The notes under the pieces are model-generated. The model searched no databases. It saw only the letters and a program-made list of their open reading frames with translations, and had not been told where the DNA came from. A stretch of DNA of 64,000 bases from assembly GCF_021134715.1 (NCBI RefSeq), contig NC_060028.1, forward strand, positions 7,276,501 to 7,340,500, written 5' to 3'. The number at the start of each line of letters is the position of its first letter. The stretch's first letter is position 1. Shown one piece after another: positions 20,745 to 51,699 of this stretch. The position numbers and the translations under genes are program-made. This DNA is from Daphnia pulex. Lineage: Eukaryota > Arthropoda > Branchiopoda > Diplostraca > Daphniidae.

Positions 20745-20846
20745 TTAGTATTTGACAGGATAATTTGGGGCGTAGGAAGGATACTGTGGTGGAGACGAGT
20801 AAGTCGGTTTGTATTCCGGATACGCAGGCCTGTATGCAGGTTTGTA
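20745..20846 (-). pseudogene. Untranslated C-terminal remnant of G1
   Basis: Beyond the premature TAA the frame continues without error through the conserved tail to TAA at 20747-20745. An AATAAA follows at 20678-20673. Confidence 0.75.
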
Positions 20847-21201
20847 TTAGGCTGGGGCCGGGTGGGCGTACGTTGGCTCATGGTAAGCCGGTTTGTGCTC
20901 GGTATAAACTGGCTTATACTCTGGGTAAGTGGGCTTGTAAGCTGGTTCGGCGTAGTACGGCTTTTGAGTTGGATATTCCGGCTTGTACTCCGGCTTGTAT
21001 TCGGGCTTGTACTCCGGCTTATACTCTGGCTTGTACTCCGGCTTGTATTCGGAGTAGTAGCTAGGCTGCTGATAATAGGGTGCTTGATCAGCAACAATGG
21101 CTGCAATTAAAACGGCGATGATTAAAAAGACCTGCAATGAAATATGGAATTGTCCTATTAATATCTTTTCAATTTAAATTTGAAAAATGTCAAACCTTCA
21201 T
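20847..21201 (-). CDS. G1: YKPE-repeat secreted protein, truncated by an in-frame TAA
   Basis: Exon 1 is ATGAAG (21201-21196), followed by a 64-bp intron and exon 2 from 21131. The 96-aa product has a signal peptide (MKVFLIIAVLIAAIVA), a YYQQPSYY segment, six YKPE repeats, and the first 42 residues of the family tail, then a stop at 20849-20847. All other family members read Ala-Tyr-Lys here. G1 has a 3-nt insertion giving GCC TAA TAC AAA. The remaining tail codons stay open to a second stop at 20747-20745, so loss was recent, or the base call is wrong. Partner gene on the other arm is G12. Confidence 0.8.
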
Positions 21202-21242
21202 ATTGTGTTAGATTATGTTCTTGTACAAAGGATGAATGAATA

Positions 21243-21279
21243 ACTGATGCTTTTCCGCTGATGTCTGGTATATTTTATA
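21243..21279 (-). promoter_or_regulatory. Core promoter of G1
   Basis: TATAAA at 21279-21274 and TCAGT at 21247-21243 (A at 21245), 34 bp apart. Confidence 0.75.
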
Positions 21280-21401
21280 CGTATTGGAGCGACACACCTT
21301 CTTCGGCGATGGTTTGCTGATACAATTCTGCAAATCGAAAATAAGAACAGGAGGAAAAATTTGCGGTTTCATTTCAATTTCATCGAATATTTTCACTCTT
21401 A

Positions 21402-21428
21402 ATTTTTGCGGAAATTTCTCCTTGAGGT
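21402..21428 (-). promoter_or_regulatory. Conserved upstream block of the G genes (copy at G1)
   Basis: ACCTCAAGGAGAAATTT followed by CGCAAAAAT lies about 200 bp upstream of the G1 start. The same block occurs at similar distances upstream of G5, G8 and G12 and in diverged form at G4, G6, G7, G9 and S2. Confidence 0.5.
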
Positions 21429-21633
21429 ATGCCAAAGCCAAAAAGGAAATCTATATCGGAAACCACCAATGATGGTCAATCCCGCATTAGCCTATCTTAG
21501 AGAAAATAGGGCGACGTCTTAATGATCAGTCTCGTGTGTCTTTCTCGCTCCAACGCTCCATAATCCATCATCGTATCCCTTTTTATTTGTGTTTCACTTC
21601 TTGCTTGAAAATTAATTATCTTTCTCTATTTTA

Positions 21634-22643
21634 CAGTAGCCTACCTACCGAAAGTCTTTGGAAGCCCGAGAGGACCTTATGCAAAAACGCTGTTTTTGCA
21701 GTCCTCTAAGTACTACAGTTTTTAACCAAATTCTTTCAAATTTGGTATGTACATAGGTAAAGGTAGTGAAAACACCTCTGATTTTTTCCGATTTTTGTTT
21801 TCATTTTCCGAAGTACTTTTAGCCGGTTCTAAAAGTCTTTAGAATGCCGAGAGGACCTTATGCAAATTAGGCCACTTTGGCCATTTTTTGCAGTTGAACG
21901 GCTAGGGCTAGGGAAACGCGACTTTTTTTTTTAATCGGCCTGCGTTAGCTTTATATAAGGTCTGATTTTCAATTTTTTTCATTTATATTATCTAATGTGA
22001 ATTTGAAGTTGAAAAACGAAAAAGTAGAATTCCCCTTTTTTCCGCACCCACCCCTTTGTTTTTTCGTTGGCGCGAGAGATAGTTAGTAGTTGCCGGTTTT
22101 TCCAAATACCGAAATTTTAAATGTTAGGGGCAGGGGGAGAAAAAAGACATGCCATCTCTAGGACCTTTTTTTTAGACTTGGTATTTGGAAAAACCGGCAA
22201 CTACGGGATCCCTGTGATCCCCCCGATCACAGGGAAAATAACTGAGAAATGAAAACTTTTCATTTTCACATCGAAATTAAAGTGATTTCTCAAATGGCAT
22301 GGGGGCCAACATTTCAGATGAGGTTATAGAGCTAACGATGCTCTTTTTTTTAAGCCCTAAAGAACTCTCCTAGCCCTATTTTCCGTCCAGTACAAGAGAG
22401 CCAAATTAGTACGATTTACTACTGGCCCTCTCGACTGTGCGGAAACTTTTTCCTCCAATTTAAAAGGGACGTTCCCGTGAACGAAAAAATACCCAAAAAA
22501 TATATGCTATAAACCTTAAGTCTAAGAACCCCCTGTCCAAAAATCGTTTTCGTCCGACGAAAACTTGACTTTTGGCGAATTTTCAAAAAACCCGTTTTCC
22601 CATAAGCTTCTCTCAGCTGTGCGGAAACTTTATGTAGCTACTG
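21634..22643. mobile_element. TA-flanked DNA-transposon-like element (non-autonomous, 1010 bp)
   Basis: Both ends begin CAGTAGC-TAC reading inward and both are flanked by TA, a likely target duplication. The opposite palindrome arm lacks this element and breaks in homology exactly at its right end. Inside are a perfect 25-bp inverted repeat (22086-22110 with 22180-22204), a GC-rich hairpin (22208-22235) and two imperfect direct copies of an about 35-bp segment (21652 and 21831). There is no transposase ORF. The superfamily is uncertain; a TA target fits Tc1/mariner-like elements. Confidence 0.65.
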
Positions 22644-23080
22644 TATATTCAGTACATTCGGCTTTTTTAAATATCAGTACATTTGCCACAGGTGTCCACA
22701 TTTAAATTAACGAACACCAAAGTGCCAAAGAGACCCTTAAAAAAAAAGCCGATTTGAATATCTATGAATTTCTCCTCCTCTTCCGTTCTTGTTCAGATTC
22801 CTGAGTGATCCTACACATCGAAGATAGCAAGAAAACAAAAGGTAAAACGGTAAAATCGTCAATCGCACCAAGAATAATATTGTTAAAATTGAACTTGAAT
22901 TTCATGACTCATACGTCACTGATTCGAATGAGAGGTTCAACTAGTATGAAAATGAACATCCATTCAAAAAAATGGTAATTATTCTTCAGAGACAAACAAT
23001 TTATTCAGACCGATAAAACATCAAGTGAAATTCATCTCAGACAAATTTAAATGATGAGCTATATGGAAGACGCAATTGTT

Positions 23081-23629
23081 TTAATATTTGACTGGATATG
23101 TTGGGGTGTAGGAAGGATGATACTGTGGTGGAGATGAGTAAGTCGGTTTGTATTCCGGATACGCAGGTTTGTATGCGGGTTTGTAGGCTGGGGCCGGATG
23201 GACATACGTTGGTTCATGGTAAGCCGGTTTTTTTTCGGTATAAGCTGGCTTATACTCTGGGTAAGTGGGCTTGTAAGCTGGTTCTGCGTAGTAAGGCTTT
23301 TGAGTTGGATATTCCGGCTTGTATTCGGGCTTGTATTCGGGCTTGTATTGTGGCTTGTACTCTGGCTTATACTCTGGCTTATACTCCGGCTTGTATTCGG
23401 GCTTGTATTCTGGCTTGTACTCCGGCTTGTACTCCGGCTTGTATTCCGGCTTGTATTCCGGCTTGTATTCCGGGTAGGAGGAGTAGTTTGGCTGATGATG
23501 ATATGCTTCATCAGCAGCAACGGCAACAATTAAAGCGGTGATTATTAAGACCTAATAAAATATTAAATTGTTTTATAACAAACACTAATTCATGCCTTTT
23601 TTAACAAAGAGTGGGCAGCATACCTTCAT
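23081..23629 (-). CDS. G2: YKPE-repeat secreted protein, longest form (158 aa)
   Basis: Exon 1 is ATGAAG (23629-23624), the intron is 72 bp, and exon 2 runs 23551-23081. The signal peptide is MKVLIITALIVAVAA. The mature protein starts DEAYHHQPNYSSYPE, has 13 tetrapeptide repeats including YKPQ and one or more variant units, and ends in the family tail with an extra His (QYHPSY) before YAPTYPVKY. AATAAA lies at 23005-23000. It is divergent from G3, with only about 490 bp between the two TATA boxes. The mirror copy is G11, of identical length. Function unknown; see G5 for the family discussion. Confidence 0.85.
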
Positions 23630-23672
23630 GTTGTTTTATATGATGTAACTGTACGAAGACCGAATGGACAAC

Positions 23673-23707
23673 TGATGCTTTTCCGATGGCTACTGGATGT
23701 TTTTATA
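23673..23707 (-). promoter_or_regulatory. Core promoter of G2
   Basis: TATAAA at 23707-23702 and TCAGT with A at 23673, 34 bp apart. Confidence 0.75.
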
Positions 23708-23746
23708 CTGGATTATCACATTTCTTCTCTTCCTGCTTTCGCCTCA

Positions 23747-23873
23747 ATGTTGATAGGCTATATTGACGGTGTGGTTTTTACTTCAATTCGTCAAGAAAGT
23801 GTTCACAATATGTTGATAGGCTATATATTGGTGGTGTGGTTTTACTTGAATTCGTCAAGAAAGTGTTCACAAT
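23747..23873. repeat. 63-bp tandem duplication in the G2/G3 divergent promoter region
   Basis: Two imperfect copies beginning at TTGATAGGCTATAT and ending at GTTCACAATAT. The same duplication is present between G10' and G11 (about 48528-48655), so it predates the palindrome. Confidence 0.8.
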
Positions 23874-24193
23874 ATTTTTACTGTATGGCTAATAAGCAAT
23901 AGCTTTCACATTGGTACGGTTTGGTGTGGGTAACACGGAACTTTCATTAAATTATTTTCCAGTATCATAAGTATATTTGGCCGCATACAGAAGAAAATGA
24001 AAAAGAATTCTTCTGTCACAATTCTTCCATCTGATATTGATAGTGAACAATATGACCAAGATGCTTCCTTAGTGGGAGTATTCGATATTTGATAGAAAAC
24101 CGCAAAATTCTCTTTTTAGATTTTTGGCATTTTTCCTTTGCAGAATATCTGCCGGAACGAATAGCAAAAGTAGAGGAAGAAAATTTAACCCAG

Positions 24194-24230
24194 TATAAAA
24201 ACACGGATGGAACGTGAAGAAGGCATCAGT
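24194..24230 (+). promoter_or_regulatory. Core promoter of G3
   Basis: TATAAA at 24194 and GCATCAGTT with initiator A at 24228. The 5' UTR would be 46 nt. Confidence 0.75.
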
Positions 24231-24273
24231 TACATTCAGCTGCTGTAAAAAATAACATCACTACGCCACAATC

Positions 24274-24750
24274 ATGAAGGTATAATCATTCAAATTTTCT
24301 GAAAAAAAAAACTCAATAAAATGCAAGCAGTTATAGCGATACAAAAATGACAAACAATTTTTCCAGGTCTTAATCGTCGCAGCTTTAATTGTTGCTGTTG
24401 TTGCTGACCAAGCACCTTATTATCAGCCGAGTTATTCTCCCTATCCGGAATACAAACCCGAGTACAAGCCGGAATACAAGCCAGAGTATAAGCCGGAATA
24501 CAAGCCCGAATACAAGCCGGAATATCCGAATCAAAAGCCGTACTACGCCGAACCTTCTTACAAGCCAACTTACCCAGAGTATAAGCCAGCTTATACCGAG
24601 CACAAACCGGCTTACCATGAACCAACGTATGCCCACCCAGCCCCAGCCTACAAACCCGCATACAAGCCTTCGTATCCGGAATACAAACCGACTTACTCGT
24701 CTCCACCACAGTATCCTTCCTACGCCCCAACATATCCAGTCAAATATTAA
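24274..24750 (+). CDS. G3: YKPE-repeat secreted protein (129 aa)
   Basis: Exon 1 is ATGAAG (24274-24279), the intron is 87 bp (the longest in the family), and exon 2 is 24367-24750. The signal peptide is MKVLIVAALIVAVVA; then DQAPYYQPSYSPYPE, six YKPE repeats, YPNQ (others have YPTQ), and the full tail ending in YPVKY. Candidate AATAAA signals lie at 24752 and 24862. The mirror partner is G10' at 47.7-48.1 kb. Confidence 0.85.
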
Positions 24751-26565
24751 CAATAAAGCCTAAGTTACATAGTTGATCTTGTAAAAATACTGGCGAATCA
24801 AATCTATATTTTGTGTTTTAGTCAATGTTAAAATGTTGATAAACCAATTCGCATTACTGACAATAAACTGAAGGTATGATAAATATGAAATTTCCCATTA
24901 ATTGACATTTCAAATATAATTTCCCGATCGTTGCTTATGCAGTCAGCGCGTGGAAACGTTGCCGTCACTATTAATGTCGTATATCTCTTCAAAGACGTCT
25001 TAATAAGTGGTTTTGGTATAGGGGAGACTGGAGTAAAATGGGACAGTTTTTGTTTTCCCCCTATATCTCCCAAACTAATTATTTAATTTCTTTAAAATTT
25101 TGTTTTTATGTATTCCATGTTATAATGAACCCCCCATTTTTTTTATATAATTTAATCATGAACCATTTCCCCATAAAATACCTTTAAAGTTGCCTCAGAT
25201 TTGTGGGAGGGGCCTATTTTGGGGGGTAATTGAGGACACTGGGGTGGGTGGTAAGGGACGTCCTCCGTTTTCGCCTTAAAATTCATTAATAAAATTGAAA
25301 AAAATTGAAAAAGTGTTTCACTGCATAGACTCTTCGAGTTTATAAATGTTTCAATTAAATTATTGTGTTAATGAACCTTTTTTCTTATATATACAAATTC
25401 CCTTATGGAGCTGTAGGACATCCTGCGTTGCTAGGTCAGGAAATCGAGCCTCTTAAAAATGCTGTACGCTGACTGGTCCGTAACTGTCCCATTTTAGGCA
25501 AAAACGGCTGTCCCAAACAACCCGATTATGACTCTTTTTTTAAAAAGTTCATACCGTCTAAACAAATTGGTCTAAAATTCTAATTTTTGTTTTAAACGAT
25601 CAAGAAATGAATCAGCTTCATTTCAATATTAAATTTACATGCCATTACCGTTTATTTGTTTCTATAAACATAAAATGGCGGAGACAAAAATTTATAAATA
25701 AAAACCGTTTTTTTAGTTTTGTCAATAACTCATGCAGTTATTGACAAAAATCAACAAAATTTCATGCCGAAGTACATTATACAGATTTACATAACATACT
25801 AAAAAATTTTAAAGTTTTATTAACATCTACTATTTTTCCCCCCACTGTCCCTTTTGACCCGGTGTCCCATTTTACTCCAGTCTCCCCTACACCTTGCCGT
25901 TTGTGCTACAAATCAAAATTTAATAACAATCATACATACTGCTGGGGACACCCAGTCAAATAAAAAAACAGGCAAATGTGGAGATCATTTACCAGTTAGG
26001 TGTTATCATGCTTACATTGTAGTTATACATCGAGTTTGGATGATGCACAATTAAGTATATGGAGACCTCAGTGGTCTGGAATCTATCATACATCAATCAT
26101 ACACAGACTTTGATAGGGTAATAAAGATTAAAAAAAAGCAAATACGCACGAAAATTTCAGGAAAATTTTTTTTAGTCTCAGTCTATTGCAGATTATAAAC
26201 TTAATCAAATAGAGAAAGGCAATTCATTTTCTAAATCAAGGGTGTGAAGGAACAAAGCAACAAATAAGGAATTGATGATGGATTGGAGCGTCGGAGAAGG
26301 AAAACCACATGAGACTGATAGTGATAATCAAGACGTCAACTTATATTTCCTTAAGACAAGGCTGGCATGTCTATGTCTGGTGGTTTTTATTTATTTAATT
26401 TTGTTTTTGCTTTTGCAATAACTCGTGGAGAAATTTTCGCTAAAATAAATAGTGAATCGATAAAATTGTAAACGAAAATCCGCAATAATTTTCCCTGTTA
26501 CTCCTTGCAATTGATAGAATATTATCAGGAGACCATCCCCAAGGGAGGTGTCTCACTCCAAAACA
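24751..26565. other. G3-G4 spacer
   Basis: Holds the 3' flank of G3, the 867-bp transposon, and the G4 upstream region. That upstream region includes a diverged form of the G upstream block near 26430. No other gene is visible. Confidence 0.55.
25021..25887. mobile_element. Non-autonomous DNA transposon with perfect 25-bp TIRs and TA target duplication (867 bp)
   Basis: Both ends start GGGGAGACTGGAGTAAAATG reading inward and match for 25 bp. Flanking TA is duplicated (25019-25020 and 25888-25889). The matching spacer on the other arm (about 47393, and 36781 in the other duplicate) reads straight through with a single TA, so it is an empty site. No transposase ORF is present. It resembles a Tc1/mariner-type MITE by target choice; I cannot name the family. 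Confidence 0.85.
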
Positions 26566-26602
26566 TATAAAAGCAATCAGTCCATAGAACAAAAGTATCA
26601 GT
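26566..26602 (+). promoter_or_regulatory. Core promoter of G4
   Basis: TATAAA at 26566 and TATCAGTT with initiator A at 26600. Confidence 0.75.
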
Positions 26603-26648
26603 TATCAATTCATCCTTCGTCTTAGCTTGTTAATATCATCTAAACAGC

Positions 26649-27117
26649 ATGAAGGTTTGTTAATTCTATATTAAATAAGGACATTCAGCAGTGTCTACCA
26701 AAATGACAAATTATTTATTAGGTCTTAATCATCACCACTCTAATTGTTGCCGTTGTTGCTGACCGAGCTCCCTATTATCAGTCGAGCTACTCTCCCTATC
26801 CAGAATACAAGCCGGAGTACAAGCCGGAGTACAAGCCGGAGTACAAGCCAGAGTACAAGCCGGAATACAAGCCAGAGTACAAGCCGGAATATCCAACTCA
26901 AAGGCCGTACTACGCAGAACCAGCTTACAAACACACTTACCCAGAATACAAGCCAGCTTATACCGAGCACAAACCGGCTTACCACGAACCGACGTATGCC
27001 CACTCGGCCCCAGCCTACAAACCCGCATACAAGCCTGCGTATCCGGAATACAAACCGACTTACTCGTCTCCACCACAGTATCCTTCCTACGCCCCCACAT
27101 ATCCAGTCAAATATTAA
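26649..27117 (+). CDS. G4: YKPE-repeat secreted protein (133 aa)
   Basis: Exon 1 is ATGAAG (26649-26654), the intron is 67 bp, and exon 2 is 26722-27117. The signal peptide is MKVLIITTLIVAVVA, followed by DRAPYYQSSYSPYPE, seven YKPE repeats, YPTQRPYY (Arg where most have Lys) and the tail, here with YKHTYPEYK and YAHSAPAY variants. AATAAA lies at 27187. The 10,612-bp tandem repeat unit starts inside the intron of this gene, so the second copy at 37334 lacks exon 1 and promoter. Confidence 0.85.
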
Positions 27118-28285
27118 AAAAACAGCAACGTCACTCACATTGCTCATCATGTAAATTTATCTGTGATGAATTTCATCTTGCGTTTCAATAAATGTTTCGT
27201 CTATATCAAGGTTTCGTATCATTTATTACAATTTTATAACTTTCGGCGAATGTTTTTTTTTCAGACTTGAACTTCTTTTCTTTTTGAAACCATCGGCTTT
27301 GAATGTCAAATGCTTTTTCAGGAATATTAATCTAAGCGATTTATGGTTTTACCGAATGTTTTTCCTGTTTTCTTCAATGCGCAAGACATAATCGTTATAA
27401 AGCGACACTGCATTGACTTATTCCGATTTCAGCATATTTTGGGCGTTGGCCTCTGTAGCCCTTTTTGGGAGATTAAAATCCCAATTTAAAAAATTGCACA
27501 TCTGTGAAAGTGTGATACAAATACTCCATTAGAAAAGGAAGTAAAATACCCAGATCATTCTACCGCAGTTTGTCGCTGAAGTTTTATTTTCAATTTTCAA
27601 GTAAAATAAGATACATATATTTTCATAAGAAGTTGTAATCACCAGCTCTTGAGCAATTTAGATTCGATGGTTTGTATTTTGAATACAAGAAATTATGCCC
27701 TTTTTTCTTGCCTTGTAAGTTCATCACCATCTGGGATATAATGCATGCATATGTTTTGAGGCCATGGGTTCGTTTTATTATTTCGTGGGATCTCCCTATA
27801 GATAACAATAACGAACTTTGGTAATAATACGCCAACTGATAATAAAAAAGACAATTACCGGAAAAAAGTCAACAGCAGTCAAGTCTGTGGCAGATTGGAA
27901 GAGCAAGATAATTTATTTTCTAAAGCAAGGAGTATGAAGGAACAATGCAACAAATAGAGAATCGATCGGAATCTATGGCGATTCAAACCATGATGGCCAG
28001 AAAGCCACATGAGATTCGGTAATTAAGATGTCGCTCTATTTCCTGCAAGATAAGAGAAGAATGCCATCAGCAGTGGTGGTTTCCGATAGATTTCCTATTT
28101 GGCTTCGGCACACCTCAAGGAGAAATTTTCCGCAAAAATAAAAAGTGAAAATGTATCGGCAATTACTTGATTCGATGAATTGAAATGAAAAACAGCCAAA
28201 TTGTCCCCGTTCTTATTTTCTATTTGTCGAATTGTATCAGGAAACCATCGCCAAAGGAGGTGTGTCAATCTAGCTAGTATATGTA
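27118..28285. other. G4-G5 spacer
   Basis: Contains the 3' flank of G4 with AATAAA at 27187, AT-rich DNA, and the conserved upstream block of G5 at 28112-28140. A 70-codon minus-strand open frame near 27.7 kb is not supported as a gene. Confidence 0.55.
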
Positions 28286-28321
28286 TATAAACAACCAGAC
28301 GTCAGCGGAAAGGCAATCAGT
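28286..28321 (+). promoter_or_regulatory. Core promoter of G5
   Basis: TATAAA at 28286 and CAATCAGTT with initiator A at 28319, 33 bp apart. The copy in the second repeat unit is at 38898-38933. Confidence 0.75.
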
Positions 28322-28362
28322 TATCCATTCAGCTTGTATTCAGTAATATCAACTAAAACAAC

Positions 28363-28866
28363 ATGAAGGTTTGTTAATTCTTTTTTAATGAGATGTTCAG
28401 ACGATGTGTCCATTAATAGGGCAATTTAATGTTTCATTAGGTCTTAATCATCGCCATTTTAATTGCTGCTGTTGTTGCTGACCAAGCACCCTATTATCAG
28501 CCTAGCTACTACCCCGAATACAAGCCGGAGTACAAGCCAGAGTATAAGCCGGAATACAAGCCCGAATACAAGCCGGAGTACAAGCCGGAGTATAAGCCGG
28601 AATACAAGCCCGAATACAAGCCGGAGTACAAGCCGGAATACCCCACTCAAAAGCCGTACTACGCAGAACCATCTTACAAACCCACTTACCCAGAGTATAA
28701 GCCAGCTTATACCGAGCATAAACCGGCTTACCATGAACCAACGTATGCCCACCCGGCCCCAGCCTACAAACCCGCATACAAACCTGCGTATCCGGAATAC
28801 AAACCAACTTACTCATCTCCACCACAGTATCCTTCCTACGCCCCAACATATCCAGTCAAATATTAA
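28363..28866 (+). CDS. G5: YKPE-repeat secreted protein (143 aa), family reference
   Basis: Exon 1 is ATGAAG (28363-28368), the intron is 72 bp, and exon 2 is 28441-28866. The signal peptide (MKVLIIAILIAAVVA) is followed by DQAPYYQPSYYPE, ten YKPE repeats and a tail of about 75 residues made of YKP, YPE, YAP and SSPP motifs, ending YPVKY. The protein has no Cys or Trp, and roughly a quarter of its residues are Tyr, with Pro and Lys next. Such proteins are typically extracellular, and Tyr can be oxidised to DOPA or dityrosine for crosslinking. Composition recalls mussel foot proteins and cuticle or eggshell proteins, but I recognise no named domain. The function is unknown. AATAAA lies at 28933. 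The mirror copy G8 appears to encode the same protein. Confidence 0.87.
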
Positions 28867-30011
28867 AACAATTGCGTCTATCTTGTAGCCCATCATATAA
28901 ATTTGTCTGCGATGAATTTCACTTTGCGTTTTAATAAATTTTTGTCGCTCAAGATTCATTGTCATTTTTTAAAATTTGATTATTATTTATTGGTACCTGA
29001 ACTTCTCCTCGTTCAAATCAGTCACTCATGAATGTCAAGTGCACTTTCAAGAATATAATTCTTGGTGCGAATTACGGATTTACTGATTGTTTTCGTTTTC
29101 TTCGATGTAGACCACTCACTATCACTCTGGAACTCGAAAAGATTGGAAGAAAGGAAGAAATTTAGGTCAGTATATTTTGAAAGGGTTCTCTAATGCTACA
29201 GTCTAGTATTGTCTAATCATAGTAATCAAAATCTAATAAATGCACACCTGTGACACATATACTGAAATAATTTTAAAAATCGTAACATCTAGATATCATT
29301 TACCAAAGTAAGTAGCCTATACTTTATTGCCAATATTTCTCACTCAAATTAGATCCATAATTTAATGACTAATCAACTTCAGAAATTTGAATCAAGATTT
29401 TGTGTTAATAAATGACGCAAATGACGACGTGAATTCACCTTGCCTTGCAAGTATTACCGTATTGTACATTGTCGTTTGGGTGGCGCAAGTGTTTTGAGGC
29501 GAATGGTTCACTAAATGATTTTATGGGGTATATCGTAACATCACGACGGTCTGCAGTAATAAAACCAAGCAGAAAATATGCGCAGACATTTTTAGAAAAA
29601 TTCCTGGTAGTCTACAATTGCAGAAAAGAAGATATAAAACAGAGAAAGATAATTAATTTTTTAGCAATAAATGGGAAGAAACACAAATAAAAATGGATAC
29701 GATGATATGGAATGAGGATCGTTGGAGCGAGAAAGACACACGAGACTGATCATTAAGACGTCGCCCTATTTTTTCTAAGATAGGCTAATGCGGGATTGAC
29801 CATATCATTGGTGTTTTCCGATAGATTTCTATTTTTGGCATACCTCAGCAAGGAGAAATTCCCGCAAGAATTAAGAGTGAAAATATATTGCCAAAACTTG
29901 GATTAATGAAACTGATTTGAACAACCGCAAAAGTTTTACTTGTTATTATTTTCTATTAGTCAAATTCTGTCAGTAAACCATCGTAAAAAGAATGTGTATC
30001 ACTCCAGTAAA
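28867..30011. other. G5-G6 spacer
   Basis: Contains the G5 3' flank, AT-rich DNA, and the G6 upstream region, with a diverged G upstream block at about 29845-29880. An 81-codon plus-strand open frame (29445-29690) has no signal peptide, splice context or recognised domain. Confidence 0.5.
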
Positions 30012-30048
30012 TATAAAACCTACCAGACATCAGTGGAAAAGTATCAGT
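30012..30048 (+). promoter_or_regulatory. Core promoter of G6
   Basis: TATAAA at 30012 and TATCAGTC with initiator A at 30046. The copy in the second repeat unit is at 40624-40660. Confidence 0.75.
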
Positions 30049-30089
30049 CATCAACTCATCCTTTGTTCAAGAACATAATCTTAAACAAT

Positions 30090-30576
30090 ATGAAGGTTTC
30101 AATTTTTTTTACCATTTTTATTGAAAGAAATTCGACTAATAGGGAAATAATATAATGTTTCATAATAGGTCTTATTAATCATCGCCGCTTTAATTGCAGC
30201 TGTTGTTGCTGATAAAACACCCTATTATCAGCAGCCAAGCTACTATCAAGAATACAAACCGGAGTACAAGCCAGAATACAAGCCGGAGTACAAGCCGGAG
30301 TATAAGCCCGAATACAAGCCGGAGTACAAACCAGACTACAAGCCGGAATATCCAACTCAAAAACCGTACTACGCCGAACCTTCTTACAAGCCCACTTACC
30401 CAGAATATAAACCAGCTTATACCGAGCACAAACCGGCTTACCATGGACCAACGTATGCCCACCCAGCCCCAGCCTACAAACCCGCATACAAGCCTGCGTA
30501 TCCGGAATACAAACCGACTTACTCGTCTCCACCACAGTATCCTTCCTACGCCCCAACATATCCAGTAAAATATTAA
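30090..30576 (+). CDS. G6: YKPE-repeat secreted protein (137 aa)
   Basis: Exon 1 is ATGAAG (30090-30095), the intron is 73 bp with a non-consensus GTTTCA donor, and exon 2 is 30169-30576. The signal peptide is MKVLLIIAALIAAVVA; then DKTPYYQQPSYYQE, eight repeats (one is YKPD), and the tail with YHGPTYAHPAP, a variant shared only with G7 and G10. If unspliced, the intron would stop at a TAA near its end, unlike G7. AATAAA lies at 30684. Confidence 0.85.
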
Positions 30577-32604: not shown

Positions 32605-32647
32605 ATTGTTTAAGATTATGTTCTTGAACAAAGGATGAATCGATGAC

Positions 32648-32682
32648 TGATACTTTTCCACTGATGTCTGGTAGGTTTTATA
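32648..32682 (-). promoter_or_regulatory. Core promoter of G7
   Basis: TATAAA at 32682-32677 and TCAGT with A at 32648, intact despite the coding lesion. The second copy is at 43260-43294. Confidence 0.7.
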
Positions 32683-34332: not shown

Positions 34333-34375
34333 GTTGTTTTAGTTGATATTACTGAATACAAGCTGAATGGATAAC

Positions 34376-37329: not shown

Positions 37330-37333
37330 TTAG

Positions 37334-40701: not shown

Positions 40702-41188
40702 ATGAAGGTTTCAATTTTTTTTACCATTTTTATTGAAAGAAATTCGACTAATAGGGAAATAATATAATGTTTCATAATAGGTCTTATTAATCATCGCCGC
40801 TTTAATTGCAGCTGTTGTTGCTGATAAAACACCCTATTATCAGCAGCCAAGCTACTATCAAGAATACAAACCGGAGTACAAGCCAGAATACAAGCCGGAG
40901 TACAAGCCGGAGTATAAGCCCGAATACAAGCCGGAGTACAAACCAGACTACAAGCCGGAATATCCAACTCAAAAACCGTACTACGCCGAACCTTCTTACA
41001 AGCCCACTTACCCAGAATATAAACCAGCTTATACCGAGCACAAACCGGCTTACCATGGACCAACGTATGCCCACCCAGCCCCAGCCTACAAACCCGCATA
41101 CAAGCCTGCGTATCCGGAATACAAACCGACTTACTCGTCTCCACCACAGTATCCTTCCTACGCCCCAACATATCCAGTAAAATATTAA
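40702..41188 (+). CDS. G6': second copy of G6
   Basis: Exons 40702-40707 and 40781-41188, with TATAAA at 40624. No difference from G6 seen; encodes the same 137-aa protein with the HGP variant. Confidence 0.82.
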
Positions 41189-42727
41189 CAAAGTCTAAGT
41201 TAATAGTTGATCTTGTAAAAATACCGGCAAAACAAATCCATATTTTGTGTTTTAGTATATGTTAAAATGTTGATAAACGAATTCGTATAACTGACAATAA
41301 ACTGTTTGTAAAATAAATATGATTTTGTTCATTATTGATACTTGAAATATTATTTCTCGATCGTTGCAGTTAGTGCGTGATAACGTTACCGTTACTATTA
41401 ATGTATGTCTCTTCAAAGACGTCATTAGTGGTTTTATATGCCTTACCGTTTATTTCTACGGTAAAAAATTCAAATTTAAGAACAATTAACTGCACACTGG
41501 TGACACACAGATTCAAATCAGGCAAATGTCGGGATTATTTACAAATTTGTAGTTAACACGCTTAAATTGTAGTTACCTGGAATTTGGATGGTGCGCAATA
41601 AGGTGTGTGGAGACCTCAGGTTCCCTTTATTATTTTATGGGCTAGCTTCTATCATAGGTGAGAGTGGGTTATAAAGTCCGTTGTACTATGTGAAACAGCA
41701 AGTTAAAAATATTTAATTTAGTTAGAAAATTCTAAAATTAATACATGACGTTGTTCATAGGTATCTACTTTATTCCATAAAAAATCATTACTTTTGTACT
41801 TTAAGTTTTTAAGTTTTTTAATAAATAAAAAAAGAACTCTAAAATTCTTAAAAAACACCGGATTTTTTGGAATTTACTCAAAATTTCAAAATTTTATAAA
41901 AAAAGAGAGATACCAAAAGTATAGATATACCTTTTATCTTTAATAAAAAAAAAATAATTTTTTACTTTAAAAATGTGTTTTGTAATTCAAGTTTTCCCAA
42001 AAGCATGCCAAAAAACCAAAATGTGGGGTAAATTGGGACCAAAAGGGAGTCTGTAATGGGCGGAGCTTAGCTCAGTGGCAATGATGAGAAAATAATAATT
42101 TTGAAACAATTAATTTTCTTAATTTAGCAATAAACTAAAATCTTAGCGAAAAACAAATACTAGGTGGCAAATATAATAGCATTATATTTTTAAATTAATT
42201 TATAACAATATTTTAGTGCTAAATTTAGAGTTATCGCCCTGTCTCATATAAACCCCGAATTTTTCCACGCCCACTTTTTTTCTGCAACTTTCAAAATCGA
42301 TAGCGGGTAAACTAATGACTCATAAAATAAAATAAAAAATACTAGAAATAGAAAAAAGTGAGAAAAATACAATAAAACAACTATTATTTAAATCGGATGA
42401 TTGGGAAAGACCCAACACGAGAAAAACCAATTAATGTTCTAAATCAAGGAGAAGTTAAGTTAGGAGAAGTGTAAGGAGGAAAAAACCACTATGACGTCTT
42501 TGAAGAAACATACTTTAATAGTGACGGTAACGTTATCACGCACTAACTGCAACGATCGAGAAATAATATTTCAAGTATCAATTTGAACAAAATCATATTT
42601 ATTTTACATGCAGTGTATTGTCAGTTATACGAATTCGTTTATCAACATTTTAACATATACTAAAACACAAAATATGGATTTGGTTTGCCGGTATTTTTTA
42701 CAAGATCAACTATTAACTTAGCCTTTG

Positions 42728-43216
42728 TTAATATTTTACTGGATATGTTGGGGCGTAGGAAGGATACTGTGGTGGAGACGAGTAAGTCGGTTTGTATTCC
42801 GGATACGCAGGCTTGTATGCGGGTTTGTAGGCTGGGGCTGGGTGGGCATACGTTGGTCCATGGTAAGCCGGTTTGTGCTCGGTATAAGCTGGTTTATATT
42901 CTGGGTAAGTGGGCTTGTAAGAAGGTTCGGCGTAGTACGGTTTTTGAGTTGGATATTCCGGCTTGTAGTCTGGTTTGTACTCCGGCTTGTATTCGGGCTT
43001 ATACTCCGGCTTGTACTCCGGCTTGTATTCTGGCTTGTACTCCGGTTTGTATTCTTTATAGTAGCTTGGCTGCTGATAATAGGGTGTTTTATCAGCAACA
43101 ACAGCTGCAATTAAAGCGGCGATGATTAATATAAGACCTATTATGAAACATTGTATTATTTCCCTATTAGTCGAATTTCTTTCAATAAAAATGGTAAAAA
43201 AATTTGAAACCTTCAT
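42728..43216 (-). CDS. G7': second copy of G7 with the same 2-bp insertion
   Basis: Exon 1 is 43216-43211; the family acceptor precedes 43137. The frame lesion and the open retained intron of G7 are both present, so these changes predate the tandem duplication, if that duplication is real. Confidence 0.58.
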   Translation of the reverse strand: MKVSNFFTIFIERNSTNREIIQCFIIGLILIIAALIAAVVADKTPYYQQPSYYKEYKPEYKPEYKPEYKPEYKPEYKPEYKPDYKPEYPTQKPYYAEPSYKPTYPEYKPAYTEHKPAYHGPTYAHPAPAYKPAYKPAYPEYKPTYSSPPQYPSYAPTYPVKY

Positions 43217-44437
43217 ATTGTTTAAGATTATGTTCTTGAACAAAGGATGAATCGATGACTGATACTTTTCCACTGATGTCTGGTAGGTTTTATATTCACT
43301 GGAGTGATACACATTCTTTTTACGATGGTTTACTGACAGAATTTGACTAATAGAAAATAATAACAAGTAAAACTTTTGCGGTTGTTCAAATCAGTTTCAT
43401 TTATCCAAGTTTTGGCAATATATTTTCACTCTTAATTCTTGCGGGAATTTCTCCTTGCTGAGGTATGCCAAAAATAGAAATCTATCGGAAAACACCAATG
43501 ATATGGTCAATCCCGCATTAGCCTATCTTAGAAAAAATAGGGCGACGTCTTAATGATCAGTCTCGTGTGTTTTTCTCGCTCCAACGATCCTCATTCCATC
43601 ATCGTATCCATTTTTATTTGTGTTTCTTCCCATTTATTGCTAAAAAATTAATTATCTTTCTCTGTTTTATATCTTCTTTTCTGCAATTGTAGACTACCAG
43701 GAATTTTTCTAAAAATGTCTGCGCATATTTTCTGCTTGGTTTTATTACTGCAGACCGTCGTGATGTTACGATATACCCCATAAAATCATTTAGTGAACCA
43801 TTCGCCTCAAAACACTTGCGCCACCCAAACGACAATGTACAATACGGTAATACTTGCAAGGCAAGGTGAATTCACGTCGTCATTTGCGTCATTTATTAAC
43901 ACAAAATCTTGATTCAAATTTCTGAAGTTGATTAGTCATTAAATTATGGATCTAATTTGAGTGAGAAATATTGGCAATAAAGTATAGGCTACTTACTTTG
44001 GTAAATGATATCTAGATGTTACGATTTTTAAAATTATTTCAGTATATGTGTCACAGGTGTGCATTTATTAGATTTTGATTACTATGATTAGACAACACTA
44101 GACTGTAGCATTAGAGAACCCTTTCAAAATATACTGACCTAAATTTCTTCCTGTCTTCCAATCTTTTCGAGTTCCAGAGTGATAGTGAGTGGTCTACATC
44201 GAAGAAAACGAAAACAATCAGTAAATCCGTAATTCGCACCAAGAATTATATTCTTGAAAGTGCACTTGACATTCATGAGTGACTGATTTGAACGAGGAGA
44301 AGTTCAGGTACCAATAAATAATAATCAAATTTTAAAAAATGACAATGAATCTTGAGCGACAAAAATTTATTAAAACGCAAAGTGAAATTCATCGCAGACA
44401 AATTTATATGATGGGCTACAAGATAGACGCAATTGTT

Positions 44438-44944
44438 TTAATATTTGACTGGATATGTTGGGGCGTAGGAAGGATACTGTGGTGGAGATGAGTAAGTTGG
44501 TTTGTATTCCGGATACGCAGGTTTGTATGCGGGTTTGTAGGCTGGGGCCGGGTGGGCATACGTTGGTTCATGGTAAGCCGGTTTATGCTCGGTATAAGCT
44601 GGCTTATACTCTGGGTAAGTGGGTTTGTAAGATGGTTCTGCGTAGTACGGCTTTTGAGTGGGGTATTCCGGCTTGTACTCCGGCTTGTATTCGGGCTTGT
44701 ATTCCGGCTTATACTCCGGCTTGTACTCCGGCTTGTATTCGGGCTTGTATTCCGGCTTATACTCTGGCTTGTACTCCGGCTTGTATTCGGGGTAGTAGCT
44801 AGGCTGATAATAGGGTGCTTGGTCAGCAACAACAGCAGCAATTAAAATGGCGATGATTAAGACCTAATGAAACATTAAATTGCCCTATTAATGGACACAT
44901 CGTCTGAACATCTCATTAAAAAAGAATTAATAACAAACCTTCAT
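44438..44944 (-). CDS. G8': second copy of G8
   Basis: Exons 44944-44939 and 44863-44438, with promoter at 44988-45021. No difference from G8 seen. Confidence 0.82.
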
Positions 44945-46154
44945 GTTGTTTTAGTTGATATTACTGAATACAAGCTGAATGGATAACTGATTGCCTTTCC
45001 GCTGACGTCTGGTTGTTTATATACATATACTAGCTAGATTGACACACCTCCTTTGGCGATGGTTTCCTGATACAATTCGACAAATAGAAAATAAGAACGG
45101 GGACAATTTGGCTGTTTTTCATTTCAATTCATCGAATCAAGTAATTGCCGAAACATTTTCACTTTTTATTTTTGCGGAAAATTTCTCCTTGAGGTGTGCC
45201 GAAGCCAAATAGGAAATCTATCGGAAACCACCACTGCTGATGGCATTCTTCTCTTATCTTGCAGGAAATAGAGCGACATCTCAATTACCGAATCTCATGT
45301 GGCTTTCTGGCCATCATGGTTTGAATCGCCATAGATTCCGATCGATTCTCTATTTGTTGCATTGTTCCTTCAGCATCTTGCTCTTCCACAGACTAGACTG
45401 CTGTTTACTTTTTTCCGGTAATTGTCTTTTTTATTATCAGTTGGCGTCTTATTACCAAAGTTCGTTATTGTTATCTATAGGGAGATCCCACGAAATAATA
45501 AAACGAACCCATGGCCTCAAAACACTTATGCATGCATTATATCCCAGATGGTGATGAACTTACAAGGCAAGAAAAAAGGGCATAATTTCTTGTATTCAAA
45601 ATACAAATCATCGAATCTAAATTGCTCAAGAGCTGATTACAACTTCTTATGAAAATATATGTATCTTATTTTACTTGAAAATTGAAAATAAAACTTCAGC
45701 GACAAACTGGTAGAATGATCTAGGTATTTTACTTCCTTTTCTATTGGAGCATTTGTATCACACTTTCACAGCTGTGCAATTTTTTAAATTGGGATTTTAA
45801 TCTCCCAAAAAGGGCTACAGAGGCCAACGCCCAAAATATGCTGAAATCGGAATAAGTCAATGCAGTGTCGCTTTATAACGATTATGTCTTGCGCATTGAA
45901 GAAAACAGGAAAAACATTCGGTAAAACCATAAATCGCTTAGATTAATATTCCTGAAAAGGCATTTGACATTCAAAGCCGATGGTTTCAAAAAGAAAAGAA
46001 GTTCAAGTCTGAAAAAAAACATTCGCCGAAAGTTATAAAATTGTAATAAATGATACGAAGTCTTGATATAGACGAAACATTTATTGAAACGCAAGATGAA
46101 ATTCATCACAGATAAATTTACATGATGAGCAATGTGAGTGACGTTGCTGTTTTT

Positions 46155-46623
46155 TTAATATTTGACTGGATATGTGGGGGCGTAGGAAGGATACTGTGGT
46201 GGAGACGAGTAAGTCGGTTTGTATTCCGGATACGCAGGCTTGTATGCGGGTTTGTAGGCTGGGGCCGGGTGGGCATACGTTGGTTCGTGGTAAGCCGGTT
46301 TGTGCTCGGTATAAGCTGGCTTGTATTCTGGGTAACTGGGTTTGTAAGCTGGTTCTGCGTAGTACGGTCTTTGAGTTGGATATTCCAGCTTGTACCCTGG
46401 CTTGTATTCCGGCTTGTACTCTGGCTTGTACTCCGGCTTGTACTCCGGCTTGTACTCCGGCTTGTATTCTGGATAGGGAGAGTAGCTCGACTGATAATAG
46501 GGAGCTCGGTCAGCAACAACGGCAACAATTAGAGTGGTGATGATTAAGACCTAATAAATAATTTGTCATTTTGGTAGACACTGCTGAAAGTCCTTATTTT
46601 ATATAGAATTAACAAACCTTCAT
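46155..46623 (-). CDS. G9': second copy of G9
   Basis: Exons 46623-46618 and 46550-46155, with promoter at 46672-46706. No difference from G9 seen. Confidence 0.82.
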
Positions 46624-47655
46624 GCTGTTTAGATGATATTAACAAGCTAAGGAGAAGGATGAATTGATAACTGATACTTTTGTTCTATGGACTGATTGTT
46701 TTTATATGTTTTGGAGTGAGACACCTCCCTTGGGGATGGTCTCCTGATAATATTCTATCAATTGCAAGGAGTAACAGGGAAAATTATTGCGGATTTTCGT
46801 TTACAATTTTATCGATTCACTATTTATTTTAGCGAAAATTTCTCCACGAGTTATTGCAAAAGCAAAAACAAAATTAAATAAATAAAAACCACCAGACATA
46901 GACATGCCAGCCTTGTCTTAAGGAAATATTAGTTGACGTCTTGATTATCACTATTAGTCTCATGTGGTTTTCCTTCTCCAACGCTCCAATCCATCATCAA
47001 TTCCTTATTTGTTGCTTTGTTCCTTCACACCCTTGATTTAGAAAATGAATTGCCTTTCTCTATTTGATTAAGTTTATAATCTGCAATAGACTGAGACTAA
47101 AAAAAATTTTCCGGAAATTTTCGTGCGTATTTGCTTTTTTTTTTAAATCTTTATTACCCTATCGAAGTCTGTGTATGATTGATGTATGATAGATTCCAGA
47201 CCACTGAGGTCTCCATATACTTAATTGTGCATCATCCAAACTCGATGTAACTACAATGTAAGCATGATAACACCTAACTGGTAAATGATCTCCACATTTG
47301 CCTGTTTTTTTATTTGACTGGGTGTCCCCAGCAGTATGTATAGTTGTTATTAAATTTTGATTTGTAGCACAAAACCAACGGCAAGGTGTATACAAAAACC
47401 ACTTATTAAGACGTCTTTGAAGAGATATACGACATTAATAGTGACGGCAACGTTTCCACGCGCTGACTGCATAAGCAACGATCGGGAAATTATATTTGAA
47501 ATGTCAATTAATGGGAAATTTCATATTTATCATACCTTCAGTTTATTGTCAGTAATGCGAATTGGTTTATCAACATTTTAACATTGACTAAAACACAAAA
47601 TATAGATTTGATTCGCCAGTATTTTTACAAGATCAACTATGTAACTTAGGCTTTG

Positions 47656-48130
47656 TTAATATTTGACTGGATATGTTGGGGCGTAGGAAGGATACTGTGG
47701 TGGAGACGAGTAAGTCGGTTTGTATTCCGGATACGCAGGCTTGTATGCGGGTTTGTAGGCTGGGGCTGGGTGGGCATACGTTGGTCCATGGTAAGCCGGT
47801 TTGTGCTCGGTATAAGCTGGCTTATACTCTGGGTAAGTTGGCTTGTAAGAAGGTTCGGCGTAGTACGGCTTTTGATTCGGATATTCCGGCTTGTATTCGG
47901 GCTTGTATTCCGGCTTATACTCTGGCTTGTATTCCGGCTTGTACTCGGGTTTGTATTCCGGATAGGGAGAATAACTCGGCTGATAATAAGGTGCTTGGTC
48001 AGCAACAACAGCAACAATTAAAGCTGCGACGATTAAGACCTGGAAAAATTGTTTGTCATTTTTGTATCGCTATAACTGCTTGCATTTTATTGAGTTTTTT
48101 TTCAGAAAATTTGAATGATTATACCTTCAT
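47656..48130 (-). CDS. G10': complete YKPE-repeat secreted protein (129 aa), mirror of G3
   Basis: Exon 1 is ATGAAG (48130-48125), the intron is 85 bp, and exon 2 is 48039-47656. The signal peptide, six repeats and YPNQ match G3, but the tail has YHGPTYAHPAP as in G6 and G7 rather than YHEP, suggesting a conversion patch from a neighbour. This is the only complete version of G10; positions below 47942 belong to the tandem repeat. Confidence 0.85.
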
Positions 48131-48175
48131 GATTGTGGCGTAGTGATGTTATTTTTTACAGCAGCTGAATGTAAC

Positions 48176-48210
48176 TGATGCCTTCTTCACGTTCCATCCG
48201 TGTTTTTATA
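48176..48210 (-). promoter_or_regulatory. Core promoter of G10'
   Basis: TATAAA at 48210-48205 and TCAGT with A at 48176. Confidence 0.75.
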
Positions 48211-48527
48211 CTGGGTTAAATTTTCTTCCACTACTTTTGCTATTCGTTCCGGCAGATATTCTGCAAAGGAAAAATGCCAAAAATCTAAAAAGAGAATTTT
48301 GCGGTTTTCTATCAAATATCGAATACTCCCACTAAGGAAGCATCTTGGTCATATTGTTCACTATCAATATCAGATGGAAGAATTGTGACAGAAGAATTCT
48401 TTTTCATTTTCTTCTGTATGCGGCCAAATATACTTATGATACTGGAAAATAATTTAATGAAAGTTCCGTGTTACCCACACCAAATCGTACCAATGCGAAA
48501 GCTATTGCTTATTAGCCATACAGTAAA

Positions 48528-48655
48528 AATATTGTGAACACTTTATTGACGAATTCAAGTAAAACCACACCACCAATATAGCCTATCAACATATTGTGAA
48601 CACTTTCTTGACGAATTGAAGTAAAAACCACACCGTCAATATAGCCTATCAACAT
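48528..48655. repeat. 63-bp tandem duplication between G10' and G11
   Basis: Mirror copy of the repeat at 23747-23873, in the corresponding divergent promoter region. Confidence 0.75.
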
Positions 48656-48694
48656 TGAGGCGAAAGCAGGAAGAGAAGAAATGTGATAATCCAG

Positions 48695-48731
48695 TATAAA
48701 AACATCCAGTAGCCATCGGAAAAGCATCAGT
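48695..48731 (+). promoter_or_regulatory. Core promoter of G11
   Basis: TATAAA at 48695 and GCATCAGTT with initiator A at 48729. Confidence 0.75.
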
Positions 48732-48772
48732 TGTCCATTCGGTCTTCGTACAGTTACATCATATAAAACAAC

Positions 48773-49321
48773 ATGAAGGTATGCTGCCCACTCTTTGTTA
48801 AAAAAGGCATGAATTAGTGTTTGTTATAAAACAATTTAATATTTTATTAGGTCTTAATAATCGCCGCTTTAATTGTTGCCGTTGCTGCTGATGAAGCATA
48901 TCATCATCAGCCAAACTACTCCTCCTACCCGGAATACAAGCCGGAGTACAAGCCGGAATACAAGCCGGAGTACAAGCCGGAGTACAAGCCGGAATACAAG
49001 CCCGAATACAAGCCGGAGTATAAGCCAGAGCATAAGCCAGAGTACAAGCCACAATACAAGCCCGAATACAAGCCCGAATACAAGCCGGAATATCCAACTC
49101 AAAAGCCTTACTACGCAGAACCAGCTTACAAGCCCACTTACCCAGAGTATAAGCCAGCTTATACCGAGCAAAAACCGGCTTACCATGAACCAACGTATGT
49201 CCATCCGGCCCCAGCCTACAAACCCGCATACAAACCTGCGTATCCGGAATACAAACCGACTTACTCATCTCCACCACAGTATCATCCTTCCTACGCCCCA
49301 ACATATCCAGTCAAATATTAA
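48773..49321 (+). CDS. G11: YKPE-repeat secreted protein (158 aa), mirror of G2
   Basis: Exon 1 is ATGAAG (48773-48778), the intron is 72 bp, and exon 2 is 48851-49321. The signal peptide is MKVLIIAALIVAVAA, followed by DEAYHHQPNYSSYPE, 13 repeat units including HKPE and YKPQ, and a tail with TEQKPAYHEP and YVHPAP variants. AATAAA lies at 49397. Of the same length as G2, with about a handful of substitutions. Confidence 0.85.
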
Positions 49322-49759
49322 AACAATTGCGTCTTCCATATAGCTCATCATTTAAATTTGTCTGAGATGAATTTCACTTGATGTTTTATCGGTCTGAATA
49401 AATTTTTTGTCTCTGAAGAATAATTACCATTTTTTTGAATGGATGTTCATTTTCATACTAGTTGAACCTCTCATTCGAATCAGTGACGTATGAGTCATGA
49501 AGTTCAAGTTCAATTTTAACAATATTATTCTTGGTGCGATTGACGGTTTTACCGTTTTACCTTTTGTTTTCTTGCTATCTTCGATGTGTAGGATCACTCA
49601 GGAATCTGAACAAGAACGGAAGAGGAGGAGAAATTCATAGATATTCAAATCGGCTTTTTTTTAAAGGGTCTCTTTGGCACTTTGGTGTTCGTTAATTTAA
49701 ATGTGGACACCTGTGGCAAATGTACTGATATTTAAAAAAGCCGAATGTACTGAATATAT

Positions 49760-50520
49760 ACGTAGATCATTTACTACTTAGCTTACGGTGGTAAAAAAGG
49801 CGCTTTTCTCGGCGTTCCCAAAAATCCAATTTTCTCCGTAACGCGACGATTTTTTTTTGCCGTAGCCGTAGTGTGTAGGAATAAGCTAATTTTTTTCAGA
49901 CTTCTGCAATCAAGGGAAGAGTAGCTTTTAAATCGATCCTTTAAATCGAGAATGTAGCGAATTTTTTAATTGAAAACGGTTTTTATTTTATTGTCCGTTC
50001 TAGTCCCTTTCTCCCCCCCCCTCCCATTTCCGGCCCGCGCGCCATTTTCTCTGTTAAACAGAGAAATCGCGCGCTTATGAGGGGGTGATAACCCGACGTG
50101 TGTGGAATGGGTGGGGAAGAAAGGGACTAGAACAGGCAATAAAATAAAAACCGTTTTCAATTTATAAATGACTACATTAAATATGACGCGAAAAATCTGA
50201 AAATGAAGAATGTTGTTCAACTAGTGAACCTCTTCATTTCAGAGTTTTTCCGTGTCTTCCTAGCTCTACCCGTTCTGTAGTTATCCCTCCTTAAACCCTA
50301 ATTTGCATATAGCTCTACGGAGCGTTCTCAAACTTAAGGCTCGATTAAAAAGTTACCCTTCCCTTGATTGCAAAAATCTAATAGCTTATTTCTACACACT
50401 ATGGCTGCGGCCAAAAAAAATCGTCGCGTTCCGACGAAAATTTGATTTTTGGGAACGCCGAGAAAAACGCCCTTTTCCATTAGGTTCTCTCGCGCGTTCC
50501 CAAACTTTGGGTAGGCACTG
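49760..50520. mobile_element. Foldback-type DNA element related to the one at 21634
   Basis: Long imperfect terminal inverted repeats (about 49793-49889 with 50382-50480) enclose a second nested inverted repeat (49970-50011 with 50119-50160, about 40 of 42 matching). The right end is CAGTGCCTACCCAAAGTTT reading inward, flanked by TA, and resembles an end of the 21634 element. The left terminus is not resolved. No transposase ORF. It lies in the G11-G12 spacer. Confidence 0.65.
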
Positions 50521-50962
50521 TATGTAAATGACTAAGCAACTCCAGAAATTTTGAATCAAATTTCTGTACAATAGATGACGTCAATTTTTGCCCTGCCTTG
50601 CAAGTACAGTACATCGCCGTTCGGATTATGCACAAGTCTTTGAAGAATTCAATTTCACTTAATTATTTTGTGGGGTATAACATACATCATGAGTCATGAC
50701 GGTCTTTGATAATCAAACTTGAGAAGGAAATAAACAAAACGTTTCCCGAAAGCAGATAAGAAGATATAAAATAGAGAAAGATTTTCAAGCAAGAAGTGAA
50801 ACACAAATAAAAAGGGATACGATGATGGATTATGGAGCGTTGGAGCGAGAAAGACACACGAGACTTATCATTAAGACGTCGCCCTATTTTCTCTGAGATA
50901 GGCTTATGCGGGATTGACCATCATTGGTGGTTTCCGACAGATTTCTTATTTGGCTTTGGCAT

Positions 50963-50989
50963 ACCTCAAGGAGAAATTTCCGCAAAAAT
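50963..50989 (+). promoter_or_regulatory. Conserved upstream block of the G genes (copy at G12)
   Basis: ACCTCAAGGAGAAATTT followed by CGCAAAAAT, 219 bp upstream of the G12 start, the same as at G1. Confidence 0.5.
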
Positions 50990-51129
50990 GAAGAGTAAAA
51001 ATATATAGAAAATTACTTGATTCGATGAAATTGAAATGAAACCGCAAAATTTTTCCTCCTGTTCTTATTTTCGTTTTGCAGAATTATATCAGCAAACCAT
51101 CGCGTAAGAAGGTGTGTCGCTCCAATACG

Positions 51130-51166
51130 TATAAAATATACCAGACATCTGCGGAAAAGCATCAGT
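51130..51166 (+). promoter_or_regulatory. Core promoter of G12
   Basis: TATAAA at 51130 and GCATCAGTT with initiator A at 51164. Confidence 0.78.
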
Positions 51167-51207
51167 TACCCATTCATCCTTTGTACAAGAACATAATCTA
51201 AAACAAG

Positions 51208-51699
51208 ATGAAGGTTTGACATTTTTCAAATTTAAATTGAAAAAAGTTAGATATAGAACAATTCCATGTTTCATTACAGGTCATTTTAGTCATCGCCGTT
51301 TTAATTGCAGCCGTTGTTGCTGACAAAACACCCTATTATCAGCAGCCAAGCTACTATCCCGAATACAAGCCGGAGTACAAGCCCGAATACAAGCCGGAGT
51401 ACAAGCCGGAGTATAAGCCGGAATACAAGCCTGAATACAAGCCGGAGTACAAACCAGAGTACAAGCCGGAATATCCAACTCAAAAACCTTACTACGCCGA
51501 ACCATCTTACAAGCCCACTTACCCAGAATATAAACCAGCTTATACCGAGCACAAACCGGCTTACCATGAACCAACGTATGCCCACTCAGCCCCAGCCTAC
51601 AATCCCGCATACAAGCCTGCGTATCCGGAATACAAACCGACTTACTCGTCTCCACCACAGTATCCTTCCTACGCCCCAACTTATCCTGTCAAATACTAA
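51208..51699 (+). CDS. G12: YKPE-repeat secreted protein (141 aa), mirror of G1
   Basis: Exon 1 is ATGAAG (51208-51213), the intron is 66 bp, and exon 2 is 51280-51699. The signal peptide is MKVILVIAVLIAAVVA; then DKTPYYQQPSYYPE, nine YKPE repeats and a complete tail with AYNPAYKPAY where others have AYKPAYKPAY, ending YPVKY. It is intact where its partner G1 has a stop. AATAAA lies at 51763. Confidence 0.87.

Follow-up and report, generated by a model that had tools for sequence, protein, structure and literature searches.

We show that a 64,000-nucleotide stretch of the Daphnia pulex genome (NCBI RefSeq assembly GCF_021134715.1, contig NC_060028.1, positions 7,276,501 to 7,340,500; hereafter the window, located on contig 12, C12) carries a real array of genes for secreted proteins built from tandem Tyr-Lys-Pro-Glu (YKPE) units. 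In our reading of the sequence, the array is probably a cluster, amplified recently, of genes whose small secreted products are matrix proteins of the cuticle type; these genes would be relatives of RR cuticle genes (PF00379) that have no chitin-binding RR domain.

The YKPE cluster and its proteins

A pattern search found 146 Y[KR]PE units that fall into 19 clusters on both strands of the window, between positions 20976 and 51460. The 76-amino-acid (aa) tail that follows the units gave 19 matches at E <= 0.01 in genome searches spanning 133,188,837 bases on 13 contigs, and every one of them lies inside the window (all 32 candidates were scored). The first-pass annotation had proposed nineteen full or partial loci and a conserved Tyr/Pro tail; both proposals are borne out, with the loci found in the window only. 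Chance is not at issue as an origin of the array, since a YKPE-YKP stretch pattern occurs 156 times genome-wide and the reversed control not once. Among 60 units checked in seven copies, 56 are exactly YKPE. Fourteen of the 19 copies are intact and encode nine distinct proteins of 129-158 aa, while five are broken. The number of exact units per intact copy is 5-12, which corrects the range of 6-13 given earlier. In composition, the mature proteins of the 14 intact copies contain 23-25% Tyr, 23-25% Pro and 12-15% Lys, and none of them contains Cys or Trp, just as the annotation had stated.

The genes have a compact and regular structure. A TATAA box, a TCAGT initiator and an ATGAAG followed by a GT donor are present at 17 of the 19 copies; the two without promoter and exon 1 flank the junction of a duplication described below. 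Exon 1 consists of only two codons (ATGAAG), and the intron, 64-87 bp long in the 15 copies measured (broken copy A among these), lies inside the signal peptide. The remainder of the signal peptide, the YKPE units and the 76-77-aa Tyr/Pro tail are all encoded by exon 2, and the signal peptides that the annotation had predicted become visible after this short intron is taken out. A single-sequence fold model of copy E recovered only the signal helix (mean predicted local distance difference test score, pLDDT, 62.9; predicted template modelling score, pTM, 0.11), which, together with the composition, suggests that YKPE proteins are extended and disordered.

The five broken copies are damaged in three ways. 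Copy A (20745-21201, minus strand), which retains a promoter match, has a premature TAA in the tail that ends its frame at 20847 (20847-21201). The two F' copies (32116-32604 and 42728-43216, both minus strand) have a 2-bp insertion 3' of the splice acceptor, and canonical splicing would therefore yield MKVLY*, with a stop four residues past Met; in the unspliced form, an open frame of 162 aa extends from this ATG across intron and exon. The last two are fragments truncated at the duplication junction, both without exon 1 and promoter: a C' fragment that also has no signal peptide (37044-37330, minus strand) and a D fragment that consists of exon 2 only (37334-37729, plus strand).

Probable kinship with RR cuticle genes

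The YKPE protein matched no Pfam or NCBIfam model above cut-off. PF00379 gave no match in copies E and B', and the RR domains of two RR genes, used as queries against the window, gave a best E of 0.57 and revealed no RR domain. The earlier claim that the proteins belong to no recognised family thus stands for domain models, but it is qualified by the promoter, the 5' untranslated region (5'UTR), the intron position and the start of exon 2, all of which point towards RR cuticle genes.

The promoter pattern derived from the array, TATAA-N18-34-TCAGT-N25-55-ATGAAGGT, occurs 78 times in the genome, compared with four times for the reversed control, and 17 of these occurrences are inside the array. 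The other 61 include one overlapping duplicate, leaving 60 promoter matches outside the array. At least 36 of the 60 (35 if a manually added RR gene is left out) are followed within 2.5 kb, on the same strand, by a listed PF00379 match, whereas the expectation by chance is about 0.14% per promoter match; the list draws on the 150 of 331 PF00379 candidates that were scored. At C10:4977168-4984586 (C10:4.98 Mb), five promoter matches stand in tandem at a spacing of about 1.8 kb, with no listed PF00379 match downstream, and these possibly belong to a further amplified family of secreted proteins.

The leader is a better witness of kinship than the low-complexity coding sequence. Among the 60 promoter matches, the RR gene at C6:3371281 has the 5'UTR most similar to the YKPE leaders, with a mean score of 42.7 (next 30.7, median 22.2), in a ranking that used sequences of up to 80 letters, counted the start codon where visible and favours short complete leaders. 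When the start codon was excluded, the same gene came first and its RR neighbour second within a chosen set of nine leaders, under four scoring schemes. None of 1000 same-base shuffles reached the observed score in any of eight 5'UTR comparisons with the two C6 RR genes, and a separate run gave 0 of 500 in six of seven comparisons and 4 of 500 in the other. YKPE and RR genes also have in common the two-codon exon 1 and the intron within the signal peptide. At the coding level, a repeat-free query found its top three matches outside the window in exons at C6:3.37 Mb (E = 1.8e-6, 1.6e-5 and 0.0028); two of the three are followed by an RR-domain exon, and the one such exon scanned, which belongs to the second match, gave a PF00379 E of 1.8e-12.

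Several observations weigh against this kinship. The best coding match (C6:3377733, E = 1.8e-6) is a gene without an RR domain, and its 5'UTR score is reached by 1, 139, 26 and 153 of 1000 shuffles in four comparisons; this lack of a clear leader likeness argues against simple descent through that gene. An unrelated YKP[DE] gene on C12 outscores the RR genes against shuffles (z 9.0, compared with 5.1-7.0), and coding similarity alone is therefore weak evidence. Of twelve 3'UTR comparisons, only one had a score reached by at most one of 500 shuffles, the other eleven being reached by 25-406. The cluster does not sit amid RR genes, as none of the PF00379 matches listed (150 of 331 candidates scored) falls within 1.71-8.33 Mb of C12, and the common promoter could reflect shared regulation without shared descent. 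Finally, an excerpt of PMC7737337 states that the function of Drosophila pro-resilin requires its RR domain, and on that account a matrix protein devoid of this domain is not an obvious gain.

A number of candidate relationships were considered and rejected. Coding similarity measured against shuffles was not accepted as proof of descent, given that the unrelated YKP[DE] gene scores equally well. An origin by fusion of the first and last parts of an RR gene around a deleted RR domain was also set aside: the YPVKY and YPAKY ends are alike, the 3'UTRs not convincingly so. Hits to Pfam DUF4816 (E 0.12 and 0.35), whose scores of 11-13 bits fall well short of the cut-off of 29.4, were attributed to low complexity, and matches to solved structures, mostly of circumsporozoite protein (best E 8.7e-8) and including a chain named OCM3 (E 7.2e-7), to repeat composition. 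Elsewhere on C12, at 309000-317000 and 965000-972500, two YKP[DE] genes (at 313 kb and 968 kb) carry their repeats after an exon pair coding for an unrecognised domain (YEFGFNRGNADHH...VKWADTYEGHGEHAWDYNHG), and neither matches a Pfam family above cut-off; with this other domain, they form a different family and were not retained as relatives. In the open-access papers searched, we found no account of this YKPE gene family.

Palindromic layout and the 10.6-kb repeat

The array is laid out as a nested palindrome that holds a 10.6-kb tandem copy. In the inner palindrome, a left arm at 25900-30823 (plus strand, copies D-E-F) faces a right arm at 31870-36761 (minus strand, F'-E'-D') with 97.85% inverted identity, across a spacer of 1,046 bp. 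The outer arms, at 22638-25020 (plus strand, B-C) and 47389-49765 (minus strand, C'-B'), show 98.87% inverted identity, and the outermost pair shows 88.3%. The intact copies, all of them among the 17 with promoter and exon 1, are distributed as follows. On the left are B (23081-23629, minus strand, 158 aa, 12 YKPE units) and C (24274-24750, plus strand, 129 aa). The inner palindrome carries D (26649-27117, 133 aa), E (28363-28866, 143 aa, a protein identical to that of three other copies) and F (30090-30576, 137 aa) on the plus strand, and E' (33826-34332, 143 aa) and D' (35543-36011, 133 aa) on the minus strand. Second copies of E (38975-39478) and F (40702-41188) follow on the plus strand, and of E' (44438-44944) and D' (46155-46623) on the minus strand. 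The right side ends with C' (47656-48130, minus strand, 129 aa), B' (48773-49321, plus strand, 158 aa) and G (51208-51699, plus strand, 141 aa).

The two units of the tandem duplication, each of 10,612 bp, were compared over 26715-37330 and 37327-47942. They differ at a single one of 10,616 positions, the third base, which is at the junction. Judging by this comparison, the repeat is either a very recent duplication or an assembly artefact. It is quite possible that the assembly laid a perfect repeat down twice and that the real locus comprises 12 loci rather than 19, although we lean away from this explanation. Seven of the 19 loci lie within the first unit, and the count would therefore fall by seven if the repeat were an assembly duplicate. 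An artefact would account for units that are free of mismatches except at the junction, whereas the palindrome arms within each unit differ by about 2%. However, the breakpoint is clean and falls within a gene, with a truncated copy on either side, the outcome expected of a genuine unequal event; a recent duplication would likewise produce such identity.

The mismatches between the inner arms are themselves patchy, with none in 28400-29149, a stretch of 750 bp around copy E, and up to seven in other 250-bp steps. A stretch without mismatches to the opposite arm, when divergence elsewhere in the arms is about 2%, may indicate gene conversion around copy E.

Elsewhere in the window, we noted a zinc-finger gene that combines a zf-AD domain with C2H2 fingers (12760-15241, minus strand) and an exon coding for an RNA recognition motif (PF00076; 436-903, minus strand).

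Selection and a predicted role in the cuticle

The ratio of nonsynonymous to synonymous substitution rates (dN/dS) in the tail is 0.017-0.192 across 15 pairs drawn from six copies, and the pooled ratio of the corresponding proportions (pN/pS) is 0.126 for a set of ten tails that includes one from a broken F' copy, values that indicate purifying selection on the tail. Sixty repeat units from seven copies differ from their modal codons by 62 synonymous and four replacement changes, a figure that gives the direction of selection and not its strength, since units of one repeat cannot be counted as independent. The first-pass picture of a secreted, amplified, Tyr/Pro/Lys-rich protein is thereby supported and gains evidence of selection, and such a protein is probably structural. 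We consider that it probably serves in building the shell, that is, the cuticle, rather than as a new glue.

Under this hypothesis, the epidermis or other cells that secrete cuticle would express the copies in a burst, in the manner of other cuticle genes. After cleavage of the signal peptide, the mature chain would remain disordered and extended, Tyr recurring at intervals of about four residues and Lys alternating with Glu. Since the RR domain is absent, chitin binding in the usual way is not expected, and the protein would instead act as a filler of the matrix among RR proteins bound to chitin, a number of which have similar Tyr-Lys-Pro segments themselves. It could then be fixed in place through Tyr, by dityrosine formation or quinone tanning, and/or through Lys. 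As the YKPE proteins are nearly identical, the many copies would provide dose rather than diversity. In excerpts of the literature, tyrosine cross-linking in cuticle is described for resilin (PMC7737337), and conserved tyrosine motifs across cuticular proteins have been proposed to cross-link (PMC2932725). An excerpt of PMC4236883 further reports that cuticle proteins of D. magna are upregulated under predator cues and that one of them matches a D. pulex gene with 33 tandem duplications; as far as that source goes, a tandem-amplified cuticle family is nothing foreign in Daphnia.

Among known systems, the RR cuticular proteins (CPR, PF00379), nearest at C6:3.37 Mb, share with the YKPE genes the TATA and TCAGT promoter, the 5'UTR, the two-codon exon 1, the signal-peptide intron (a usual feature, not a defining one) and Tyr-Lys-Pro segments after the signal peptide; the likeness of promoter and 5'UTR supports kinship without being defining. 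Unlike CPR genes, YKPE genes have no RR domain, carry uninterrupted tandem units and have a single coding exon after the signal-peptide intron. The RR-less gene that gave the best coding match (C6:3377715-3377993, minus strand) also has an intron-split signal peptide and no Pfam match, and it ends in SVKY where the array has PVKY; in contrast to the array, it is a single gene with no YKPE array and a 5'UTR that is not clearly alike. The low-complexity proline-rich cuticular proteins of insects (CPLCP) are likewise secreted and rich in Pro and Tyr, a label that likely denotes composition rather than descent. The repeats of resilin are rich in Gly, unlike the YKPE proteins, in which each of the 14 intact copies has 0-1 Gly. 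The short isoform of Drosophila pro-resilin is, according to an excerpt of PMC7737337, a secreted, Tyr-bearing cuticle repeat protein that loses the RR domain through alternative splicing. In the YKPE genes, by contrast, the gene itself has no RR domain.

Two other functions could be served by proteins of this composition. Mussel foot protein 1 is a low-complexity protein of Tyr/Lys/Pro tandem repeats, and an adhesive or capsule polymer of this kind (for the ephippium, dorsal organ or egg shell), cross-linked through 3,4-dihydroxyphenylalanine (DOPA) or dityrosine and expressed from a borrowed cuticle-gene promoter, would be in keeping with about 25% Tyr, 12-15% Lys, short tandem repeats, no Cys and copy-number dose. 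We think this unlikely: nothing specific was found in its favour. The promoter is of a type common to cuticle genes in general, the matches to solved structures consist of low-complexity repeats, mostly of circumsporozoite protein, and the mussel foot protein 1 decapeptide is absent from all 14 intact proteins. Because mussels belong to a different phylum, the likeness is convergence at most. The ephippium is a modified carapace cuticle, and to that extent a glue or capsule would overlap with a cuticle role.

The second possibility, of an egg-shell, gut-lining or other secreted matrix protein unrelated to cuticle, would mean that the cuticle-like promoter is no more than a strong core promoter widespread among genes for secreted proteins. 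Up to 24 of the 60 promoter matches, including the five in a row at C10:4.98 Mb, have no listed PF00379 match downstream, and the promoter is therefore not unique to RR genes; this number is an upper bound, since 150 of the 331 candidates were scored. We nevertheless judge this explanation improbable, as the 5'UTR, in addition to the core promoter, is most similar to that of RR genes. That the array is mostly a functionless, decaying tandem repeat, as the five broken copies of 19 might suggest, is very hard to reconcile with 14 intact copies that retain promoter, splice sites and low dN/dS.

Returning to the cuticle hypothesis, we can envisage a bolder form of it, which we regard as unlikely: a cuticle lineage that lost its chitin-binding domain would have given rise to a polymer free of chitin, amplified for dose and with Tyr in every fourth position, produced in a burst for one special cuticle such as that of the ephippium, while the palindrome still shifts copy number among clones. 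If the tissue proves to be ordinary epidermis, the array would add one more to the cuticle gene families already known to have expanded in Daphnia. Being a simple Tyr-Lys-Pro-Glu tetrapeptide, the repeat lends itself readily to studies of Tyr cross-linking in a crustacean shell. If true, the cuticle origin proposed here would show how matrix proteins without the domain can arise from a family of chitin-binding cuticle genes. The array would then also offer, in a model crustacean, a palindromic amplification that is recent and sharply delimited, and through which gene copy number could be related to expression and to the mechanics of the cuticle.

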